Shown here in pieces: positions 16,748-28,043 of a DNA stretch of 64,000 bases (position 1 is its first letter; every line of letters starts with the position of its first letter). A program made the translations under genes and the position numbers. The notes under the pieces are model-generated. The model was not told the DNA's origin and did no database searches. It saw only the letters and a program-made list of their open reading frames with translations. This stretch comes from Scheffersomyces stipitis CBS 6054 (lineage: Eukaryota > Ascomycota > Pichiomycetes > Serinales > Debaryomycetaceae). The stretch lies in assembly GCF_000209165.1 (NCBI RefSeq), contig NC_009043.1, positions 1,550,001-1,614,000 on the forward strand, in the 5' to 3' direction.

Positions 16748-19159
16748 TCAAAACATAACCAAACCAGGAAATTGATAGTATCTGACAGCAGCCCAATTAA
16801 CAAAATTTCCTTCCTTATTATCTCTACTCCAAATGTACAACAACATTCGTTCAAACTCTTCAATATAGTGGAACTTCAATCTTTTCTTTATAGATCTGAC
16901 CCTTGAAATGATAAAATCTCGATCAGTTTTTGTTATCGCTACAGAACCAGCTAGTATCAACGGAAACATTAAACTACTTTCCAAGTTTGACTTCTCTGGG
17001 ATCAATTTGACAGCTCTTAGGATAGTAGAAAGACACACTTTAACTCTTATGTCTTGACGGTTGTAACCATCTTTGATTTGATGCAATCTTAAAAAAGCAG
17101 CCCATTGTAAAGCCATGGCATATTGAGACATCTGGACATCTGAAACATCATTGAAGTTCATTGTGGTTGGTAATTCCCAGTCTTGTAGTTTCATCTCGAT
17201 ATCATCCGCCATTATTTGAAATTGTCTCTCTTGATCTTCGCCGTCATGCCTCGATTTACGTAACGAGGCCAAAGTTGAAATATTGCCCAAAATTTTGAAT
17301 ATTTCACCAGCAATACCAAATCTGAAGCCAAACTTGCTGTTCAAAATCTCTGTGACCTCTTCTTGATCATAAACATGAGATTCTATTTCTATCTTTTCAC
17401 TTATAGTCAGTTCGCTTGTTTGACAATTGTCATTTTGGGCTGATTGTTCAATATAAGGTGGATGACAAGTACTGAGGCTTGAAATAAGATCTATATAGCA
17501 AAAAAGTTGAACCAACATTGGTGCATAACCACTTCGAGCTGAAGCCATCTTTTTAATACCTCCTCTAAATTTTGTGATCTCAGATGCTTTTTCTAATAAA
17601 ACAGACCAACCTAAAGACGATCCATTCAATATTTCCATGATTCCACTCAACAAGATTGATAGTAAGATTTCATCAGAAAAGTAGTACTCTACTTGAGAAG
17701 TGCTCCCAAGCAATGTAGCATGAGAACTTGAACGATACAAGACAGCGTCTCTAAAGAATTTTATATCATTACCTGCCCTGTGAGCCGAAGCAATGGCCAA
17801 AATTGGATCTCTGACCCTCTTATCTTTCAATGAGATAGGGATAATAGTGCTCATGAATGCATTAGAGGTCTCGTCAGCAAATATGGTGAATGATACGTCA
17901 GTAACAAAATACTTTAACAAAAATCTCTCCTTTACAGAAATGTTGTTTTCCATTACAATGTTATTCAAAAGACTCAAGCATATACTATTACTGATTTGAT
18001 TCATGTTCTCAAACAATTGGTGATATTTGATGGATGTTGATTTGTGTAATTGAATTGGACCAGGGGTATCAGATCTAGAAATGGCCATACGTTTTCTAGT
18101 AATATTATCACTACTATTGTTGATACTCTCGTTATTAATATTGGCCTCGCTACTCTCAGGATTATTCAGATTGTTCGCGAGAATTAGACCAAAATTTCTT
18201 AAATCCTGATCTATAATGGAACTGGTAATATTATCGTCGCCATCGTCGTTATCTCTTCTAAACAAATCAGAAAATAGTGCATCATTACTGCTGCAAGTAC
18301 TGTTCATAGGTGAAGATTCCGCCCCTGTATTTGTTTTTTTATCCATGTTTAATAATGTAATGTCGTTGTTAAGAAAGGTATCAGTCGACATAAAAGCAGC
18401 TGGTGAAACTGGAATGTTATGAGTCTCCTTTACACATCTATCCCTAATAGGTTCTGAAGATTTCTGTTCCGTGGAACTTGTTTGCAGCAGAACTGTAGTC
18501 TCGGAACAATTTCCATCGTTGGGATTGTCAAAATGGGGCGAAGCTGAACTATCATCAACTGAGAGACTGCTTATTAGTGATGTCGAACTAGAAGCAGATT
18601 GTATTGACAAGCTGATCTCAGCCTTCCTTTGCAACAATGGGTCTAATCTTGAAGATTTAGCCTTTGGCTTCCTCTTACGCACAGTAGGCCCCGAACATTC
18701 CAAATTCAGTTTGGTACAATAGCCACAATTGGGCCAACTTTCATCACATTTTCTCTTTCTCTTTCTACATGCTTCACAGGCCGATTTCGAGTGGCGTATT
18801 CCAGTTCTCTTCTCAAGTTTGCCATTTCTGCGATCACTCAGAGGTATCAAAGAGTTGCTTCTAGGAGAATAAGACAGATCTCTATCTCCTCTTTGAGGTC
18901 TACCAATTTTTTTCAATGGCCTATCCAACACGCACTTAATGCTCATTCTGGCACACCTTTCACATGGCACACTTCCCGTACAAACTTGCTTTATTTCATG
19001 ACATCTATCGCAGGCTCTTTTCTTCGGCTTTGGAAGTTCCTGGAGTAGTTGTAGCTGTGAAAGATGTTCCAAATGTTGATCTTGATCTTGTTCGACTGAT
19101 ATTATGCTTGAGATACTTTGTAGATTTTCAGTCTCATTCTGTCTTGTTCCTTCAGACAT
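16748..19159 (-). CDS. Transcription factor with two Zn2Cys6 clusters
   Basis: 803 aa counted from the ATG at 19159; the frame extends further upstream but without an ATG. Two complete zinc binuclear clusters are present: C50-x2-C53-x6-C60-x5-C66-x2-C69-x6-C76 and C128-x2-C131-x6-C138-x6-C145-x2-C148-x6-C155. Both are followed by basic segments (KKIGRPQRGDR and RKRKPKAK). Nearly all fungal members carry one cluster, so this is unusual. A Ser/Asn-rich linker (about 180-360) leads to a helical C-terminal half resembling the Fungal_trans_2 regulatory domain (LKYFVTDVSFTIFADE, DPILAIASAHRAG, LGWSVLLEKASEITKFRGG). It sits at one end of the metabolic cluster, in the same direction as the adjacent FAD hydroxylase, and has a CCGaCGG palindrome in its own upstream region. 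It is probably the cluster regulator and possibly autoregulated (inference). Confidence 0.9.
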   Translation of the reverse strand: MSEGTRQNETENLQSISSIISVEQDQDQHLEHLSQLQLLQELPKPKKRACDRCHEIKQVCTGSVPCERCARMSIKCVLDRPLKKIGRPQRGDRDLSYSPRSNSLIPLSDRRNGKLEKRTGIRHSKSACEACRKRKRKCDESWPNCGYCTKLNLECSGPTVRKRKPKAKSSRLDPLLQRKAEISLSIQSASSSTSLISSLSVDDSSASPHFDNPNDGNCSETTVLLQTSSTEQKSSEPIRDRCVKETHNIPVSPAAFMSTDTFLNNDITLLNMDKKTNTGAESSPMNSTCSSNDALFSDLFRRDNDDGDDNITSSIIDQDLRNFGLILANNLNNPESSEANINNESINNSSDNITRKRMAISRSDTPGPIQLHKSTSIKYHQLFENMNQISNSICLSLLNNIVMENNISVKERFLLKYFVTDVSFTIFADETSNAFMSTIIPISLKDKRVRDPILAIASAHRAGNDIKFFRDAVLYRSSSHATLLGSTSQVEYYFSDEILLSILLSGIMEILNGSSLGWSVLLEKASEITKFRGGIKKMASARSGYAPMLVQLFCYIDLISSLSTCHPPYIEQSAQNDNCQTSELTISEKIEIESHVYDQEEVTEILNSKFGFRFGIAGEIFKILGNISTLASLRKSRHDGEDQERQFQIMADDIEMKLQDWELPTTMNFNDVSDVQMSQYAMALQWAAFLRLHQIKDGYNRQDIRVKVCLSTILRAVKLIPEKSNLESSLMFPLILAGSVAITKTDRDFIISRVRSIKKRLKFHYIEEFERMLLYIWSRDNKEGNFVNWAAVRYYQFPGLVMF

Positions 19160-19198
19160 GGGCACAAGTATTATAGTCTCGTGAAAACGAGATAGCAC

Positions 19199-19923
19199 AT
19201 TAACCTGTGCAGCTTGAATTCAATTATGAATCAAAAAAACCTCTATTAACAGTGAAGTATGGCGGGCTTCAAATATGGCAATTATTTACCGTGCTCTACT
19301 TGTTAATTTACTTCGTAACATCAAGTACTTCTTTTTAGATCGAATCTAATATCACATTGAATTGAAAGGGAACCTTTGTGTTCCTTATCTAAAATTGAAC
19401 CAAGCAAATAATTTTGCGTTTCTTATCAGCTCGTGATTACATAATGAACTATAAATGTTAACTTCCGACGGAAGTTTTCTGTGGTACAGGGCTTTGAATT
19501 TTATGTTTGAACAAAGTATATCCCAAAAACACATATCCGACCAGCCATCCACTGAATGAATCGCAACTCATTACTTGTTTTAAATTGGGGTCCTTTTATC
19601 TTGTTGCAAAAATACAATATATTAATATCACCCGGAAGTTTTTATCTAAGGATTTCCTCCACCCTCGGTATGGATTAGAGGAAGATTTATATACTCTCTA
19701 GTAGGTAGGTTGGAGTTTAGTCGTAATACATGCTATTTCGTAAGAAGTATCAATTTCAAATACTTAAGGATTGGTAGTGAGAAATTGTAGGCGACTAATA
19801 GTTCTAAATAATTAGTGGAATAGGAGAAGAGTTTGAAAGGATGTGCATTTTCAAGCAATTGCCCCGACTGGAGTTAAATTAATCTAGAATAAGTTAAGAA
19901 AGCTATAACAGTCTGCATTGAAG
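19199..19923. other. Upstream region of the double-Zn2Cys6 regulator
   Basis: Promoter of the regulator (minus) and 3' flank of the first FAD hydroxylase. It contains the palindrome at 19460-19476 described separately. No gene is seen. Confidence 0.6.
19460..19476. promoter_or_regulatory. 17-bp palindrome AACTTCCGACGGAAGTT (candidate Zn2Cys6 site)
   Basis: Perfect inverted repeat with an everted CCG-N-CGG core, about 300 bp upstream of the regulator's ATG. Zn2Cys6 factors typically bind paired CGG triplets, so it is a candidate autoregulatory site. Related sequences lie at 23737-23744 (TTCCGGAA) and 26559-26571 (CCGTCGGAAATTT) in other cluster promoters. Confidence 0.5.
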
Positions 19924-21162
19924 TCAAAGACCCATGTTCTTGACAATTTGATCAATATCAGCCTTGATATTATACGAACAAACTTCTTCGATTGTAAGCC
20001 TGTTTTCATCTTTCAAATCAGCAGCTCCCGAAGACCAACCGATTCTTTCATTCAAGTTTTCTCTAGCTCTCAATGAAGCGGCTTGAATTTTGTTGGCTCT
20101 TGGTTGTCTAACAGATTGATACACTTTTAATCCATCTTGTGGGGAAAAATTAAACATTTTGCTGAAAATGTAACCAAAGGCAGCTGCATCTTCAAATGCC
20201 ATCACTGCACCTTGAGATTGATCTGGCATTTGAGGGTGGGCAGCGTCACCTAATAAGCCGACTTTTCCCTTGACCCAATATGGATACTGTTTGTGAACAT
20301 ATAGTCTCCATTGTTTGATATCAAACGCAATCTTGAATAGTTCCTTCAAGGCACCATCTAACTCTGGAAATGTGGCTAATAATTGCTCAGGAGTAGCTTC
20401 ATTGTTCCAACCATCTTCACGCAAGTCATTGATCTCAGCCGGATAGAAGCAGTAACATGAAACAATTTCACCATCTGAACATGGAGACAAAACAATCTTA
20501 TTTTTGTCGTTACCACCCCAAAATTCAATGGCTTCATTCTTTGAAAAATCCTTTAATCCCAACTTATGAACGTCTTCTGTCCTAAATAAGCATCTGTAAC
20601 AGCATGAGGTTGAAATCCCAAATTCTGGTATGACACCAATTTTCTCTCTTGTTGTAGATCTGATGCCATCTGCTGCAATAATCAAGTCAGCATATGCTTC
20701 TTTGCCGTTTTCAAAGACCATGTGCCCACTTTCATGGTTGACATCAATGACTTTATAATCAACTAACAACTTACATGGTGTACCCTCCCCCTTTTCTTGT
20801 GTTGCAGTATCCATCAAAACATTATGAATGTCTATTCTGTGAAAGTTATAGTATGGAGTTCCAAAAGCCTTCTCATAGTCTCCCAAGCTGTAAACACCCT
20901 CGATTTCGCCCGTCTTCCAATCGTGCCTGATTAAATCCTTCAAGATGATTGGTTTGGCGGCATCAAAGTCAATTCCCCATTCCTTCAAATGTTTACCACC
21001 ATTTGATGCGCACGATAATGAGGCACCAACTTCACCAGCAAAGTGATATCTTTCATAAACTGTAACAGTATGACCATTTCTTCTCATGGCAATGGCTGCA
21101 GCAAGACCACCTAATCCAGCACCTAATACTGCGACGTTTAATGGTTTCCATTCCTTTGTCAT
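19924..21162 (-). CDS. FAD-dependent monooxygenase, salicylate-hydroxylase-like
   Basis: 412 aa from the ATG at 21162; the frame extends upstream without another ATG. Group A flavoprotein hydroxylase signatures are all present: Rossmann GAGLGG at 14-19 with the FAD-ribose Glu (VYERYHF) at 37, the DG motif LIIAADGIRSTTR near 166, and the GD motif GLLGDAAHPQMPDQSQG near 302. This family uses NAD(P)H and O2 to hydroxylate, or hydroxylate with decarboxylation, aromatic rings; the P-D-Q-S-Q-G stretch after GD resembles salicylate and 6-hydroxynicotinate hydroxylases. No membrane or targeting segment is visible, so a cytosolic enzyme is likely. It lies 5' of the regulator and 3' of the MFS permease, all on the minus strand. 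The substrate is unknown. Confidence 0.88.
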   Translation of the reverse strand: MTKEWKPLNVAVLGAGLGGLAAAIAMRRNGHTVTVYERYHFAGEVGASLSCASNGGKHLKEWGIDFDAAKPIILKDLIRHDWKTGEIEGVYSLGDYEKAFGTPYYNFHRIDIHNVLMDTATQEKGEGTPCKLLVDYKVIDVNHESGHMVFENGKEAYADLIIAADGIRSTTREKIGVIPEFGISTSCCYRCLFRTEDVHKLGLKDFSKNEAIEFWGGNDKNKIVLSPCSDGEIVSCYCFYPAEINDLREDGWNNEATPEQLLATFPELDGALKELFKIAFDIKQWRLYVHKQYPYWVKGKVGLLGDAAHPQMPDQSQGAVMAFEDAAAFGYIFSKMFNFSPQDGLKVYQSVRQPRANKIQAASLRARENLNERIGWSSGAADLKDENRLTIEEVCSYNIKADIDQIVKNMGL

Positions 21163-21204
21163 TATTTCCAGTTGGTTTACAAATGGGTAAATATTATGGT
21201 GCAA

Positions 21205-21881
21205 TTAAAGTCTTAGGTTCAACCTTCAAAAAAGTTGATTAGAGACTGAATCCCCAAATATGCGATTACTTGTGGTTCCATTTTATATATTCCTGACTTG
21301 CAGCAATTTCACCAATTCGAGAAAAACACCAGATAATCGATTTGCCAGTAGTGCATTGATGAAATCAACTGGCTTGTAGAGTCGGATAACTCAAGGATTG
21401 ATAAGAAAGTGGATTAGATTCCCGCAAGCACAAAATCAACTGTCGCAAATTTAAAATGGCCGCCGCAAAACTTTTGATTAGCCTCCAGACGAAAAGGGAT
21501 TAAACGGAAATTTAAGACACTATCGCAAATGCCGAACTAAGATATCTAAAGCGACCTAAGGTGTGTATACTTTCCGATTCAACTTGACTGCATGTTGAAA
21601 TTTTTTGGAACCTCAATTTTCATCTTCGATAAGCTTTTTTGCATCTTCAAATTTATATTTCGCCAGATCTGAAACCAAAGAGAATTAATATTATGTACAT
21701 AAAAGTATTTAGAAAGGGTAAGTAAAAATCGAGATGGAAAATGAGGGCATAGCGGTCAGAAAAGTAAGCTAAGAAACAAATAAAACGATGTGATCTGAGA
21801 AAGCACTAACATTCTTATATAGCATATACAGAACTAATATTGTGTATGTAACGTCTATAAACCCAAAACTCTTTCAAGAAT
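21205..21881. other. Promoter of first FAD hydroxylase and 3' flank of permease
   Basis: TATATAAAA on the minus strand near 21280-21289 lies about 120 bp upstream of the hydroxylase ATG. Also present are CGGAAATTT (21505-21513), two copies of TCGCAAAT (21443-21450 and 21523-21530), and GGCCGCCGC near 21459. No gene is seen. Confidence 0.5.
21505..21513 (+). promoter_or_regulatory. CGGAAATTT, shared cluster-promoter element
   Basis: This 9-mer occurs exactly at 26563-26571 in the hydrolase/second-hydroxylase promoter. The right half of the regulator palindrome is CGGAAGTTT, one base different. Confidence 0.35.
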
Positions 21882-23414
21882 CTAATACTTGTATCTGAAG
21901 TGTCTGTTTTCAAAATCCGTCAAATTGGACCATGCGAGTTTCAATTCTTCATCTTCAGTCAAAGGTAATTCATCCTTCTGCTCTTCGTCTCTACTCTTGT
22001 TTCTGCGATAGTAGATGAAAGCTATAACCCATGTTATAATTATACTCAAGGCTTGAGTAACCAACAAGCAGATTTTGGCAGGGTAATAGTCTGGGGCATC
22101 CTTGTGTTGATAACTCTGAGGACCAACAATATTACCAATGGCAAAACCAAACATGATAAAAAGGTTCGCACCAATCTTCTTTGTATAACCAGAAAAGTTG
22201 GCTCCGACCCAACTATATATGATAGCCAAAGGGGCAACAATGAAATTAATAAGGTAGATACCAACCAACAAGCCAGCTTGATTGGACTTTGGCAAAAATG
22301 ACATCAAAGCACCACCAATGATAGCAGGAATAAGTAAAAGAGTATTGGCAATCCAGCGTGGAAATCCCTTCATAACGAAATATGTAGACACCAATGTTGA
22401 GAAAATGGATACAATACCAGATGGCATATTCAATAGAGCAGCTTCCCTTGATGTGAAACCAAACGAAATAATGTCTGTCGATGAAAAAGTTGAGATTGTA
22501 CTTGACGAAAATGAAACCGTGATAGCCAAAAGACATAATAACCAAGGTTGAATATCACACAACAATTCCCAAAATTGAGACTTGACTAAGCGTTTATTTT
22601 GAATACCAACTTTACTTTCCGTCAACTTCGTCAACAACACATACTTTTCCTTTGGCGTTAAAAATTTGCAGGATAATGGATTGTCTGGCAAAGTAAAATA
22701 TGCTGCTAAACCGGCGGCGATATTGAGCATACCAATGACAATAAACATTATTCTCCATCCACGAATGGAAGTATTAGAAACCAATTGGAATAGGTATGAG
22801 ATCAATCCACCAAATATTTGACCCAAACCCAAACCACAATACCAGATACCACTTCTAAACGAACCTTCATATGAAGTGTACCACATTGTTGTAATAAGTA
22901 ACAAACAGGGACTGATGGCAGCTTCTGCACAGCCGAGTAAAATACGTACAGTCAACATACCACCAAAGTTTGTTGGAGCAGCACAACATGCAGAAAAGAC
23001 ACCCCAAAGCAAGACATTTAAACCCAAAACCTTCGAAGGAGAAAATTTTTGCAAAAAGAAGCCTTGAACAGGTTCAAAGAAAAAGAATGCAACGAAGAAG
23101 AAAGTAGCCAAATATGAGAATTGGTTGTTGACCAAACCAATATCTTGTGACATACCCATAACGTTACTATAATTCAAAGCAACTTTGTCTAGAAACTGCA
23201 AGAAGTAGCATGTCAACATAATTCCCATAATACGATAATCAACCTTTCTGGTAACTGCCTCCGCTGAGACAGCTTCTTCTGGATTTTCGTCATCAAAATT
23301 CTTCAAAAATTCGTATACCAGTCGATCGTGTGTATCACAATTGCCGAAGTCTGTTGTCGATCCCACTTGGGTAACGCTAATAGCAGCCAACGAGCTTTTT
23401 TCAACTGAGCTCAT
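21882..23414 (-). CDS. MFS permease, anion:cation symporter (Dal5/Tna1/Thi73-like)
   Basis: 510 aa with about 60 polar N-terminal residues and twelve predicted membrane helices. Features of the fungal ACS group: DYRIMGIMLTCYFLQFLDKVALNYSNVMGM leading into TM1, the TM2-TM3 loop FLQKFSPSKVLGLN, and LLGCAEAAISPCLLLITTMWY around TM4. Characterised members carry organic anions such as allantoate, nicotinate, cysteine and related carboxylates with protons. Placed between two flavin hydroxylase genes and divergent from the SDR reductase (556 bp between starts), it probably imports the cluster substrate, most simply a carboxylate (inference). The C-terminal tail is charged and cytosolic. The substrate cannot be read from the sequence. 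Confidence 0.9.
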   Translation of the reverse strand: MSSVEKSSLAAISVTQVGSTTDFGNCDTHDRLVYEFLKNFDDENPEEAVSAEAVTRKVDYRIMGIMLTCYFLQFLDKVALNYSNVMGMSQDIGLVNNQFSYLATFFFVAFFFFEPVQGFFLQKFSPSKVLGLNVLLWGVFSACCAAPTNFGGMLTVRILLGCAEAAISPCLLLITTMWYTSYEGSFRSGIWYCGLGLGQIFGGLISYLFQLVSNTSIRGWRIMFIVIGMLNIAAGLAAYFTLPDNPLSCKFLTPKEKYVLLTKLTESKVGIQNKRLVKSQFWELLCDIQPWLLCLLAITVSFSSSTISTFSSTDIISFGFTSREAALLNMPSGIVSIFSTLVSTYFVMKGFPRWIANTLLLIPAIIGGALMSFLPKSNQAGLLVGIYLINFIVAPLAIIYSWVGANFSGYTKKIGANLFIMFGFAIGNIVGPQSYQHKDAPDYYPAKICLLVTQALSIIITWVIAFIYYRRNKSRDEEQKDELPLTEDEELKLAWSNLTDFENRHFRYKY

Positions 23415-23593
23415 GATTCTTTTTAGTTACGTTTCTTACTTATTATTAGCGGGACGTAGAGACGGTGATTGAAAATATATAATTTGCTCGATATCTGTTA
23501 GATGTAAAACGAATCGAGGCAGTAGAGAACGTAGATGAACATCGAAAAAGAAGGAATTTATATCTATATCTATATATATGATTTGGTAACAGA

Positions 23594-23668
23594 TGCCGAT
23601 ATCAGCAATATGGTTAAGGAAACCAACTTTAGATGATAGTCGTAATCTGCAGAAGATCGTTATCGGCA
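23594..23668. promoter_or_regulatory. Inverted CCGATA pair (TGCCGATA...TATCGGCA)
   Basis: Perfect 8-bp inverted repeat with 59 bp between the arms. A further CCGATA is at 26610-26615 in the other bidirectional promoter. Candidate zinc-cluster half-sites; no binding is shown. Confidence 0.35.
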
Positions 23669-23736
23669 CTTCAAATTTGCGCCCCACGGAGACTTTTCAG
23701 GAAGATGCGAAAATTCAGATTGCGGCATATTTTCGT

Positions 23737-23744
23737 TTCCGGAA
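23737..23744. promoter_or_regulatory. TTCCGGAA palindrome, related to cluster motif
   Basis: An 8-bp palindrome with CCG/CGG triplets back to back, the spacer-less version of TTCCGaCGGAA upstream of the regulator. Confidence 0.35.
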
Positions 23745-23970
23745 CTACAGTTGCTAGAACTTCATATTTCCCATTTGGCAATTGTTGGCTTCCAATTATT
23801 TGCTGAAACGACCTTAATTCCTTGAACGTATGGCTGTACATAAAGATGAAATTCAAATATATTGGGCATTTGTCTCATTTTTGAGAGCTTAATATCCCTT
23901 TTTGTTTTCTCTTAAAAGAGTTTGTATTGCGATTTTTCCAAAACTTCATTATTCATCTAGATTCATTAAA

Positions 23971-25020
23971 ATGACTGCTGAGCCAATTATTTACCCTGGG
24001 TCATTGATACTCGTTACTGGTTCAACTGGTTTCATTGGAGCACACTGTGTTAAACAATTATTGCAGGAAGGATATAAAGTTAGAGCCGCTTTAAGATCCA
24101 AGTCAAAAGCTGATAGATTGATGCGAAGCGTTGAAAGAAAGTATCAATTATCCTTATCGTTTGCTTTTATCAGTGATATCACAGACTTGAAATCAATGCA
24201 AAAAGCTGTTGTTGGTTGTGATGGTATTCTTCATTTGGCTTCACCATATACATATGCAGTTACCAACTTTGTTGATGAGTTGTTAACACCAGCAGTTAAG
24301 GGAACAACGACAGTTATGGAAGCTGCTATCAACGAACCAAAAGTCAAAAGAGTTGTCATTACTTCGTCTTTTGCTGCAGTTTTCGATGCTTCAAAAGGTA
24401 TGCAACCAGGGGTGGTATTGACAGAAAGAGATTTCTCTCCCTTATTATGGGATGATGGAGCTAATACCAGTGACGTTGCAGTTGCCTATCGAGCATCCAA
24501 AATTGTCGCTGAAAGAGCAGCTTGGGATTTCATCGAAGAAAAACATCCAAACTTTGATATTGCTGTTTTATGTCCACCTATGGTCTATGGCCCGTTGATG
24601 AATACTTTATTGCTAGATTCAATTGCATCTTTGAATTTTAGCAATCAAGGCATTTGGAAGATGTGTACTTCAAGTTCCTTGGATGAAGTTCCACCTACAA
24701 AGGGTCCTGTTTGGGTTGATGTTAGAGATTTAGCAAACGCCCATATTAAAGCCCTAATTACTCCTGGCGCTTCAAATCAAAGATTTATGGTTAGTGCTGG
24801 TGATTTCTGCAATCAAGAAATTGCAGATATACTTAGAGAGAAGTTACCAAAGAAGTTGGCTGATAATATTCCTATTGGTGAACCAGGTAGGAGAATTACC
24901 GGTTCTCACTTTACTACCGATTCAACGAAGGCCATCAAAGTTCTAGGTGTTCATTTTGGAAGATTTGAGGACGCTGTTTTAGATTTGGCTTTGCAACTTT
25001 TTGAGTATACTCAAACCTAA
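23971..25020 (+). CDS. NAD(P)H-dependent reductase, extended SDR (Gre2-like)
   Basis: 349 aa from the ATG at 23971; upstream in-frame codons lack an ATG. The Rossmann motif TGSTGFIG is at 16-23, a basic residue (R42 in ALRSKSK) suggests NADPH preference, SS at 132-133 and Y173-x3-K177 (YRASK) form the catalytic set. CPPMVYGP follows the active site as in the Gre2/dihydroflavonol-reductase/cinnamoyl-CoA-reductase group. Members reduce aldehydes and ketones such as methylglyoxal, isovaleraldehyde and aromatic aldehydes. It is divergent from the permease and faces the hydrolase tail-to-tail (274 bp between ends). In the cluster it probably handles a carbonyl intermediate. A-/T-ending codons dominate compared with, for example, SSY5. 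Confidence 0.9.
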   Translation: MTAEPIIYPGSLILVTGSTGFIGAHCVKQLLQEGYKVRAALRSKSKADRLMRSVERKYQLSLSFAFISDITDLKSMQKAVVGCDGILHLASPYTYAVTNFVDELLTPAVKGTTTVMEAAINEPKVKRVVITSSFAAVFDASKGMQPGVVLTERDFSPLLWDDGANTSDVAVAYRASKIVAERAAWDFIEEKHPNFDIAVLCPPMVYGPLMNTLLLDSIASLNFSNQGIWKMCTSSSLDEVPPTKGPVWVDVRDLANAHIKALITPGASNQRFMVSAGDFCNQEIADILREKLPKKLADNIPIGEPGRRITGSHFTTDSTKAIKVLGVHFGRFEDAVLDLALQLFEYTQT

Positions 25021-25294
25021 TATAAACATATTTTATGCACTTGAAGTATTTTTAACTAACTGTTGTTTCTTGTCGGCGACTATTATCTGTAATGCTTGAA
25101 CTTTACTTTTTAAACTTTTCAATATCAACTGTAAACTCTAAAAATATACACCGTCCATTTTTATGAAAATAATGTGAAGTAATTCTATTTCACGAAGTGT
25201 TTCGTTTGCATAACACATCTGGATTACACTTTCGGGTTATACAAGAGGAAATGTGTATGAATACATATGTCTATGTCTGAAGTAACTGTTGAAT

Positions 25295-26356
25295 TTACCA
25301 TCCTATAGTACCATGAGCCAATGCTAATTCTTTAGCAGTCAAGTCAATAAAAGAGCTAGCTTGCCACAAAGCAGCATCCATATGCATAAAGGGATGAGGT
25401 ACACCCTCAAATCTCTTGAACACAACCTCATTACCATTAGTAATTAACTTTTGAGCGTAGGCTTCACCTTCATCTCTCATTGGGTCACACCCTGCTGTAT
25501 AAATGACAGTTTTAGACAAACCTTTCCAGTTCGGCGCGGTCATGATACTCTTGAACCAGCCCATCTTTGCAACTTGAAGGTCGTACTCACCCTGATCTTT
25601 AGATAATGAGGACCATTTCAACGAATCGAACCATTTCAATCTTGCCCAATTCAATGTTGGAGCAAATTCACATTCTTGGGTTGAGAAGTATGGAGAGTCT
25701 GCAGCAGTTGCGTATGATTGGATATCATCAACTTGTGGTGTACCGGCACAAACCAATTTCAACTTGAGGCCAATGTCTCTGCATAAGTGATCAACTGCTA
25801 AACAGATATTACCTCCAGCACTAACGCCACCGATAGAAATACTATCTTTGTTGAATCCTAACTTTTCGGCATTTTGATGGACATATTTAGTAGCTTCGAA
25901 ACAGTCAGTCAAACCAGTGGGAAAAGCGTATTCTGGGATCAATCTATAATCAACATCAACAATGGCAATTCTTGCCTTAGCACAGTAATGTTTCAAAACA
26001 TGCGATTCAGTATCCAAATCCCCTAAACCCCAACCACCACCGTGGAAATCAATATGGACTGGTAATAATTCATCTTTCTTGCTATCATTCGGTCTATATA
26101 TCCTCAAGATTATTTCAGAACCATCTTCAGCTTTGAATGCAACATCTTTTATGTCCTTGATATCTGGTGCAGGAGCGGTACCATAAGAATAGATCTTTGA
26201 GTAGTTCTTCCTCAAGAGTGGAAGATCGATCTTACCATTTGGAGTATGAGCAACATGTTCATTGTATAAATCAACAAATACTGGATCCATCTTACCGAGC
26301 ATTGTCGGATGGATTGGATTGACAGCTTCATGGCCCGTTTCGAGTACTTTCGACAT
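25295..26356 (-). CDS. Alpha/beta hydrolase, hormone-sensitive-lipase-type esterase
   Basis: 353 aa. The oxyanion-hole motif HGGGW (105-109) and nucleophile elbow GVSAG (S179) identify the HSL/bacterial family IV group; D291 (GCDPMRDEG) and H321 (VPHPF) complete the triad. There is no signal peptide, so the enzyme is likely cytosolic. These enzymes cleave short-chain or aryl esters and lactones. A cap region (about 1-60) and an aromatic-rich insertion (about 220-275, many Trp/Phe) probably shape the acyl pocket. The gene is divergent from the second FAD hydroxylase with 469 bp of shared promoter and a minus-strand TATATAAG about 77 bp from its ATG. In context it may open an ester or lactone made by the hydroxylases (inference). 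Confidence 0.9.
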   Translation of the reverse strand: MSKVLETGHEAVNPIHPTMLGKMDPVFVDLYNEHVAHTPNGKIDLPLLRKNYSKIYSYGTAPAPDIKDIKDVAFKAEDGSEIILRIYRPNDSKKDELLPVHIDFHGGGWGLGDLDTESHVLKHYCAKARIAIVDVDYRLIPEYAFPTGLTDCFEATKYVHQNAEKLGFNKDSISIGGVSAGGNICLAVDHLCRDIGLKLKLVCAGTPQVDDIQSYATAADSPYFSTQECEFAPTLNWARLKWFDSLKWSSLSKDQGEYDLQVAKMGWFKSIMTAPNWKGLSKTVIYTAGCDPMRDEGEAYAQKLITNGNEVVFKRFEGVPHPFMHMDAALWQASSFIDLTAKELALAHGTIGW

Positions 26357-26825
26357 TTGTAGTTATGAGAATTGATAACTCCTTTTAAGATATAAAGTAA
26401 AATGGATAAACAAGTATTGCTTTCAATTGTCCTTATATACAAAAGTTGTGATTTCCAATCTTCATTACATGTTTGGCTTTCATGAATAGTAGTATGTAGT
26501 ATCGATTAAACGTCGCTCATTTTTCTAACCGTTGCGTATCTCTTATCTCAAAAAGTGGCCGTCGGAAATTTGTTTTTTCGCGATCTAAGATTTTCACTTT
26601 GACAGAAGCCCGATAAGGAAGCAGTTTGACGGTCTACATTTTGAAAAATGACAATCTATCACTATTATTTGAAAAAATGACAAATTCTGAGGAGATAAGA
26701 ATGGAAGGCTTCAACATCGTCCTCTTCTAAAGTACCAAAATAACTTATAAATACCTTTTTATTCTTCGTTTTGTCCATTCAGTCTTATCAGATCAGCAGA
26801 GAGAAATATATATCTATATACTAAA
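26357..26825. promoter_or_regulatory. Bidirectional hydrolase/hydroxylase promoter
   Basis: Contains TATAAATA at 26746-26753 (73 bp before the second hydroxylase ATG), a minus-strand TATATAAG near 26432-26439 for the hydrolase, CCGTCGGAAATTT at 26559-26571 and CCGATA at 26610-26615. Confidence 0.5.
26559..26571 (+). promoter_or_regulatory. CCGTCGGAAATTT, CCG-N-CGG site
   Basis: Same everted CCG-N-CGG core as the palindrome upstream of the regulator, and the same CGGAAATTT as at 21505-21513. It lies between the two divergent starts (about 200 bp from the hydrolase, 255 bp from the hydroxylase). Confidence 0.45.
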
Positions 26826-28043
26826 ATGACAGCATGGGACCAAGGTAAGATATTAATTTCAGGAGCAGGAGTTGTTGGTTTGTTGCTAGCACAATCATTA
26901 AAGAAACTAAACATTCCATACGAAATATTCGATAGAGATGAGTCAATAAGCGCTAGAGGTCAAGGTTGGGGTATCACAATTCATTGGGCATTGAACGATA
27001 TGTTGAGCATGCTACCAGAAGATTTAATCAAATCTGTGTACGATGCTCAAGTTTACGAAAATTTCCATGAGAATGACAATGGTAATTTCATTTATATCAA
27101 TGGCTCAAACGGTATCCCAGTTGTTAATATCCCACCTGCTCCAAGATTAAGGGTCAGAAGAGAAGAGTTAAGAGTAATCTTGTCAACTGGTATTGATGTC
27201 AATTGGGGTTGTCAGACCATTAACATTGAGACTGATGACGATGCAACTGATATCAACAAGAGAGTTACAGTCACATGTAAGAATGGCAAAGTATTTCAAG
27301 GTGGAATATTGATGGGTATCGAAGGTTCCAAATCGGTCACAAGATCAATTACAAATCCTACCAATCATGAATTGCAATACTTACCGATTAGATTTATTGG
27401 TGGTACCATTGAGTTATCGGAAGATGAATATAGGAAGATGGCAACAACTTTCAGTCCATTGTTGTTTCAGGGCACAATTCCACAAACTGAATCGTTCTTT
27501 TGGTATTCCCTCTTAGCAACACCAAAATACACTAAAAACGGAACTTACAAATCACAGATCATGATGTCATGGAAAAATAATCCGGATGAACCATTTGATA
27601 CACCAGAAGAAAAATATGCCCTGATTAAAATCCATTCAAAAGGATTAGACCCTCGATTACAATACATGATTGATTACTTGGACAAGAGCACCGGGTCTTT
27701 CATGGAGTTGCAATTGGCCGATTGGCCAATATGCGATTGGAACGATTTCAATAATAAGATCTTATTGATGGGTGATGCATGCCATGCGATGACGATGTAT
27801 AGGGGTGAAGCTTGCAATCATGGCATTGCTGATGTTAAACTATTCACAAACTTGTGTGAAAGCTTGTTGAATGGTAAAATAGATTGGAATGCGGTTGTTG
27901 GGAAGTATAAAACTTCGATAAAAGATAGATGTTCAGAAGCTGTTCTTCTATCGAGACAGGCTTGTATCGATGCTCATGATTGGAGCAAGATTTTTGTTGG
28001 TAGTCAGTCTCCGTTGCTAGCAATTAGAAAGAAGAATTTATGA
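26826..28043 (+). CDS. Second FAD-dependent monooxygenase
   Basis: 405 aa, group A flavin hydroxylase. Rossmann GAGVVG is at 13-18 with an acidic residue after beta-2 (IFDRDES), and the GD motif LLMGDACHAMT is at about 313-323. The middle DG motif reads MGIEGSKSVTR (163-173), with Glu for the usual Asp. The sequence differs strongly from the first FAD hydroxylase (for instance no P-D-Q-S-Q-G after GD), so they are distant paralogues likely acting on different steps. Its relatives are the fungal FAD-binding monooxygenases often found in secondary-metabolite and aromatic-degradation clusters. It starts 73 bp after a TATAAATA box, is divergent from the hydrolase, and forms the far end of the cluster; RTF1, a housekeeping gene, follows. 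Confidence 0.88.
   Translation: MTAWDQGKILISGAGVVGLLLAQSLKKLNIPYEIFDRDESISARGQGWGITIHWALNDMLSMLPEDLIKSVYDAQVYENFHENDNGNFIYINGSNGIPVVNIPPAPRLRVRREELRVILSTGIDVNWGCQTINIETDDDATDINKRVTVTCKNGKVFQGGILMGIEGSKSVTRSITNPTNHELQYLPIRFIGGTIELSEDEYRKMATTFSPLLFQGTIPQTESFFWYSLLATPKYTKNGTYKSQIMMSWKNNPDEPFDTPEEKYALIKIHSKGLDPRLQYMIDYLDKSTGSFMELQLADWPICDWNDFNNKILLMGDACHAMTMYRGEACNHGIADVKLFTNLCESLLNGKIDWNAVVGKYKTSIKDRCSEAVLLSRQACIDAHDWSKIFVGSQSPLLAIRKKNL

Follow-up and report, generated by a model that had tools for sequence, protein, structure and literature searches.

A 64,000-nucleotide window of the Scheffersomyces stipitis genome (contig C3:1550001-1614000; 15.44 Mb in 8 contigs) carries, at positions 16748..28043, six adjacent open reading frames (ORFs) encoding a zinc-cluster regulator, two monooxygenases dependent on flavin adenine dinucleotide (FAD), here FAD1 and FAD2, a permease of the major facilitator superfamily (MFS), a short-chain dehydrogenase/reductase (SDR) and an alpha/beta hydrolase (HYD). 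An ORF check of the 64-kb window found all six intact from ATG to stop codon, and matches in Pfam, the Protein Data Bank (PDB) and NCBIfam agree with the coordinates and families proposed in an earlier note made from the sequence alone (Table 1). Translation assumed the standard code; the ORFs contain only 0 to 11 CTG codons each, and at FAD2 residue 266, where the question of the nuclear code arises, relatives are too variable to decide it. The genes include two divergent, promoter-sharing pairs, as had been noted, with 556 bp between MFS and SDR and 469 bp between HYD and FAD2, and the cluster is internal to its contig, stopping 263.8 kb short of the contig end. The proposal that the six genes form one coherent cluster is supported by the analyses presented below.

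Table 1. Genes and promoter regions of the cluster, in window coordinates.
Feature	Position	Strand	Description and evidence
Regulator	16748..19159	-	803 aa; two Zn_clus + Fungal_trans_2 (Pfam)
Regulator promoter region	19160..19923	.	near-palindrome ACTTCCGACGGAAGT at 19461-19475; second CGGAAGTTT at 19633
FAD1, group A FAD monooxygenase	19924..21162	-	412 aa; FAD_binding_3 (Pfam), PDB sequence matches, predicted structure
FAD1 promoter	21163..21881	.	CGGAAATTT at 21505
MFS permease	21882..23414	-	510 aa; MFS_1 (Pfam); TIGR00893 below cut-off
Shared MFS/SDR promoter	23415..23970	.	palindromic TTTCCGGAAC at 23736; no CGGAARTTT
SDR, extended Gre2/methylglyoxal reductase type	23971..25020	+	349 aa; Pfam and PDB match
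HYD, HSL-type alpha/beta hydrolase	25295..26356	-	353 aa; Abhydrolase_3 (Pfam)
Shared HYD/FAD2 promoter	26357..26825	.	CCGTCGGAAATTT at 26559-26571, a CCGNCGGAARTTT site (3 in the genome)
FAD2, second, distant group A FAD monooxygenase	26826..28043	+	405 aa; FAD_binding_3 weak (E 1.5e-5)

Enzymes, permease and regulator

Both FAD1 and FAD2 possess the Rossmann GxGxxG and GD FAD motifs and the p-hydroxybenzoate hydroxylase (PHBH)-type fold of group A flavoprotein monooxygenases, which bears out their earlier description as two distantly related hydroxylases of aromatic type. PDB sequence matches place FAD1 among hydroxybenzoate and hydroxynicotinate hydroxylases, several of them decarboxylating, and its predicted structure is nearest to TrlE, VhyA and GsMNX1, followed by NicC, 3HB6H and HpxO; VibMO1 (8gsm) is kin of FAD1 by both PDB match and structure comparison. 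The predicted structure of FAD2 (predicted local distance difference test score, pLDDT, 92.3) has 4hb9, Tet(X), HpxO and TropB as its closest folds. The genome encodes three clear FAD1 paralogues (30-31%) and a weak one (26%), as well as one HYD paralogue at 32% and one weak; no other match to FAD2 was found in it at E 0.001.

HYD has the features of a hormone-sensitive lipase (HSL)-type alpha/beta hydrolase, namely an HGGG oxyanion hole, a GxSxG motif and catalytic Asp and His. Its nucleophile motif reads GVSAG, and HGGG at 105-108, Ser179, Asp291 and His321 are invariant in 12 aligned sequences (the window protein and 11 relatives), and the roles of H105-G108, S179, D291 and H321 are presumed from these motifs. 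HYD scores 87.6 bits against the vibralactone cyclase 6kd0 and 184 bits against the LipP1 profile, below the cut-off of 350. A PDB match identifies the SDR as an extended, Gre2-type enzyme. The best NCBIfam match of the permease, at 198.8 bits against a cut-off of 395, is TIGR00893, which we take to be the anion:cation symporter (ACS) family with a role in uptake; going by its sequence, the permease is probably of this type.

Cysteines spanning residues 50-76 and 128-155 give the regulator two complete Zn2Cys6 clusters in addition to a Fungal_trans_2 domain, and the earlier claim that the cluster has its own double-zinc-cluster regulator therefore stands. It is the only ORF with two full six-Cys clusters among the 100 Zn_clus matches that a six-frame search of the genome yielded, a count that is a lower bound, and its architecture is unique in the genome among those matches. 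Only one other same-strand Zn_clus pair less than 1.5 kb apart was found; it lies on contig C7, and its second member is partial, covering 15 profile positions. Searched at full length, the regulator has 19 other matches, all confined to its zinc-cluster region and linker (residues 47-237).

Conserved neighbourhood and promoter elements

Conservation of the gene neighbourhood in relatives, which the earlier note had set as a check on its proposal, was assessed with three protein searches returning 743, 398 and 342 relatives, of which the best 120 each (360 rows) were used. Among these, 16 contigs carry FAD1, HYD and FAD2, and 30 carry two of them (15 FAD1 and FAD2, 9 FAD2 and HYD, 6 FAD1 and HYD). 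Genes were assigned to the same contig by equal length of their contig records, 9 of the 16 triple contigs being shorter than 80 kb, and a gene missing from a contig among the listed matches does not show its absence. Co-localisation thus holds for these three genes, with some exceptions considered below. Taking locus tags to run along the contig, and leaving out JGI-style tags, which are not ordered, HYD and FAD2 have consecutive tags in seven of eight readable records. Tag order is known for all three genes in four records: Aspergillus nanangensis and Dothideomycetes sp. NU459 have two genes between FAD1 and the HYD-FAD2 pair, as in the window, and Ogataea philodendri and Penicillium bovifimosum have one.

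The earlier note had also reported recurrent CGG-type elements in all four promoter regions. CGG triplets are indeed present in all four, but plain triplets are not enriched, their total of 30 comparing with a shuffle mean of 25.5 and being reached by 16.7% of shuffles. The longer element CGGAARTTT has four sites in the window, counting both strands, all within cluster promoters (two in that of the regulator, one in that of FAD1 and one in that shared by HYD and FAD2), and 4 of 100 window shuffles reach four matches anywhere. Together with its one-mismatch variants, CGGAAGTTT provides five sites in three of the four promoters, a result attained by 2 of 1000 shuffle sets, in a test that allows for word choice (CGG-led 9-mers at one mismatch), and by 1% of 1000 random window draws. 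Two of the three CCGNCGGAARTTT sites in the 15.4 Mb genome lie within the cluster, and the regulator promoter holds the sole genomic site of TTCCGNCGGAARTT. This common promoter element is the sign seen here of a possible joint control of the genes, and CCGACGGAAGTTT is a candidate sequence for binding by the regulator. The third genomic CCGNCGGAARTTT site, at C4:222786-222798 outside the cluster, may be an extra target of the regulator or a chance occurrence.

Evolutionary history and base composition

The history of FAD1, FAD2 and HYD was inspected in quick, unrooted trees of chosen subsets (53, 57 and 55 rows, respectively), with the Shimodaira-Hasegawa-like approximate likelihood ratio test (SH-aLRT) as the only support measure. 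In each of the three, a single branch separates the named yeasts from the named filamentous fungi (SH-aLRT 100 for FAD1, 100 for FAD2 and 99 for HYD), unnamed metagenome rows being excluded from this split. The window protein groups with Ambrosiozyma and Ogataea in the FAD2 tree (84), and with Ambrosiozyma (84) and then Ogataea (88) in the HYD tree; in the FAD1 tree, built without an outgroup, no starred branch fixes its position among the yeasts. The three genes look inherited, the pattern being that expected of inheritance, although the unrooted trees would also accommodate an early transfer, predating the divergence of the sampled yeasts. The recent acquisition suggested in the earlier note is contradicted by the single yeast/filamentous split in the three trees and by the position of the window with Ogataea and Ambrosiozyma in two.

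That suggestion had drawn on the AT-richness of the genes, an observation that holds: the by-eye G/C counts behind it (23/60 and 35/60) are exact, and the GC content at third codon positions (GC3) of the six genes, 0.28-0.38, is below that of 16 other window ORFs, of 17 listed (Mann-Whitney p 5e-5). It is also below that of 44 ORFs from other genome loci (p 7e-4), a non-random set comprising loci fetched as relatives of cluster genes and the ends of contig C3. Since 12 of these 44 ORFs have equally low GC3, the low values call for no explanation beyond low expression or relaxed codon selection; nine of the 12 lie in regions close to the ends of contig C3. A hydrolase-alignment scan of genome contigs for bacterial copies, a weak test limited to two peptide patterns, confirmed none of 12 pattern matches, and a scan of viral contigs with FAD1 confirmed none of 23. 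Of the listed relatives, just one bears a bacterial name, a hydrolase labelled as belonging to a metagenome-assembled genome of Nevskiales (P0327); it nests among Sordariomycetes in the HYD tree and is therefore probably fungal contamination.

A proposed catabolic function and its alternatives

Gene content, catalytic motifs, the conserved FAD1/HYD/FAD2 neighbourhood, the inherited-looking trees and the common promoter element form the basis for reading the locus as an old ascomycete metabolic cluster that degrades an aromatic or heteroaromatic carboxylic acid, to which we assign a probability of about 0.55. In such a pathway, the permease would import the aromatic acid and FAD1 would hydroxylate it, most likely placing a hydroxyl in the position of the carboxyl group, as happens in 4-hydroxybenzoate 1-, vanillate 1- and 6-hydroxynicotinate 3-hydroxylases. 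Addition of a second oxygen by FAD2 would yield a product with its ring dearomatised or expanded; HYD would then hydrolyse the resulting ester or lactone, and the SDR would reduce a ketone or aldehyde. The tandem zinc-cluster regulator is predicted to bind the CCGNCGGAARTTT sites and switch the genes on with an inducer, and it may control its own gene through the sites in its promoter. A search of the openly licensed PMC literature, mostly by titles and abstracts, found no description of this gene set, and one may exist elsewhere. Few yeast aromatic metabolic clusters have been worked out, and this one is widespread and looks old; relatives of its genes occur in tractable species such as Ogataea polymorpha, which, together with the predicted binding site, makes the substrate, the pathway and the regulator directly testable.

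Several observations weigh against this reading. The substrate and the order of the reactions are a matter of inference. Decarboxylation by FAD1, proposed by analogy, is a guess because TrlE, 3HB6H and HpxO, which presumably act without decarboxylation, lie within about 2 Z units of its decarboxylating kin, and the modelled fold of FAD2 does not separate hydroxylation from oxygen insertion. Conservation in relatives covers three of the six genes and has exceptions: in Hirsutella minnesotensis, the eighth record readable for tag order, FAD2 and HYD are on separate contigs (HIM_03619, HIM_02235); FAD1 of Priceomyces carsonii does not share the contig of HYD and FAD2; FAD1 and HYD of Trichomonascus ciferrii are 60 tags apart on different short contigs; the two FAD tags of Penicillium cinerascens are 12 apart; and FAD1 and FAD2 of Aspergillus sydowii are on different contigs. 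As regards the promoters, CGGAARTTT was picked after inspection of the sequence and is missing from the MFS/SDR promoter, which has TTTCCGGAAC instead. Reversed-pattern controls are about as common in the genome as the elements themselves (3 vs 2 for CCGNCGGAARTTT; 2 hits at one site vs 3 for TTCCGNCGGAARTT), and hence the evidence from these elements lies in their position, not in their number.

The gentisate and 3-oxoadipate pathways of Candida parapsilosis reportedly use ring-cleaving dioxygenases, to go by gene names, whereas none of the six genes encodes a dioxygenase, according to Pfam. The C. parapsilosis clusters share with the present one FAD hydroxybenzoate hydroxylases, an MFS permease, a Zn2Cys6 activator and inverted promoter elements of GGA/GGR type (PMC8929692), but their permeases are AAHS proteins (PMC5566891), a family other than that of the cluster permease. 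Identity with a gentisate-pathway cluster was rejected, since gentisate dioxygenase and fumarylpyruvate hydrolase are not among the six genes by Pfam. In vibralactone biosynthesis, the flavin enzyme VibO turns a phenol ring into an oxepinone that is handled by the alpha/beta hydrolase VibC (PMC10257657), so that a dioxygenase-free ring opening is chemically possible. Points of likeness are VibMO1, known from PDB titles, as kin of FAD1 and the match of HYD to the cyclase 6kd0; unlike FAD2, VibO is a three-domain, phenol-hydroxylase-like protein, for which reason it was rejected as the FAD2 family, and that pathway builds a natural product with prenyltransferases (PMC10257657). A catabolic counterpart of this chemistry, with FAD1 converting an aromatic acid to a hydroquinone-type compound, FAD2 inserting oxygen into its ring to give a seven-membered lactone (oxepinone) and HYD opening the latter, is a speculative and rather doubtful version of the scheme; if true, yeasts and moulds would have a further, dioxygenase-free means of aromatic ring opening. 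The FAD1/FAD2 product could just as well pass to a dioxygenase encoded at another locus of the genome.

The absence, by Pfam, of a ring-cleaving dioxygenase or CoA-forming gene among the six genes would also suit detoxification, in which the same enzymes would alter a harmful phenolic or lactone of plant or fungal origin for tolerance or export without feeding central metabolism. Tet(X) and HpxO are among the folds nearest FAD2, and relatives of the cluster are associated with plants and insects, as detoxification would favour; the best NCBIfam match of the permease is instead a family of symporters that act in uptake, and conservation across yeasts and moulds suits a nutrient pathway equally. 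This explanation is unlikely, if deserving of attention. Catabolism of a nitrogen heteroaromatic compound is more improbable. It would draw on the likeness to the hxn nicotinate cluster of Aspergillus nidulans, which also combines two FAD hydroxylases, one of them NicC-like and decarboxylating, with a dehydrogenase, a hydrolase, MFS transport and a regulator of the pathway, and which occurs in scattered Saccharomycotina and Pezizomycotina (PMC9304392, PMC8478523). The parts differ, however: hxn has a Cys2/His2 regulator (HxnR), a 620-aa enzyme of phenol-2-monooxygenase type (HxnV), a 254-aa SDR (HxnW) and a cyclic imidase (HxnM) (PMC9304392, PMC8478523), as against a Zn2Cys6-pair regulator, a 405-aa FAD2, an extended SDR of another type and an HSL esterase here. 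The cluster resembles the hxn pathway in logic, without its defining parts, and was rejected as hxn itself on the basis of its Zn_clus and Fungal_trans_2 regulator and of FAD2 having FAD_binding_3 only; HYD, moreover, is esterase-like rather than an imidase or amidase.

A role in biosynthesis or tailoring of a secondary metabolite is very unlikely. It is suggested by an FAD1 relative named OpS4 in Colletotrichum spaethianum and by VibMO1, TropB and SorC, structural kin of FAD1 or FAD2 that we take to be natural-product pathway enzymes, but Pfam detects no polyketide synthase, nonribosomal peptide synthetase, terpene synthase or prenyltransferase among the six ORFs, and the closest flanking genes with Pfam matches encode a bZIP protein, a Plus-3 protein and an OPT transporter. 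A chance neighbourhood or a recently transferred patch, to which the low GC3 might point, can hardly be credited in view of the conserved neighbourhood, the single separation of yeasts from filamentous fungi seen in all three trees and the equally low GC3 of 12 of the 44 other genome ORFs.

Two further fungal loci were compared with the cluster. In Aspergillus terreus, two FAD genes, one of them salicylate-1-monooxygenase-like (ATEG_10014), and an SDR gene lie close together near a 3-hydroxyanthranilate cluster, the FAD genes being salicylate-responsive; that set differs in that an aryl-CoA ligase is named and no esterase is mentioned in the excerpt (PMC7842363). A. terreus relatives of FAD1 and HYD (P0069, P0308) share one contig; their records carry no ATEG numbers. 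The paxilline neighbourhood, considered because of a Penicillium paxilli relative of FAD2 (P0168), was rejected, there being no gene matchable to FAD2 in the available part of the gene table of PMC3760044.

Two other gene groups were noticed on contig C3. Near its right end, C3:1822001-1841851 (L035-L036) encodes a Zn2Cys6 regulator, an FAA hydrolase, a cupin, an FAD monooxygenase (C3:1831123-1832190), an MFS protein, an extended SDR, an aldehyde dehydrogenase and an Oxidored_FMN protein of old-yellow-enzyme type, and in its Pfam families resembles the gentisate-pathway cluster known from yeasts; in C. parapsilosis that cluster has a subtelomeric position (PMC8929692). Near the left end, C3:18001-28000 (L034) encodes, next to one another, an MFS permease, a 776-aa regulator with C2H2 and Fungal_trans domains, and an HSL-type hydrolase.

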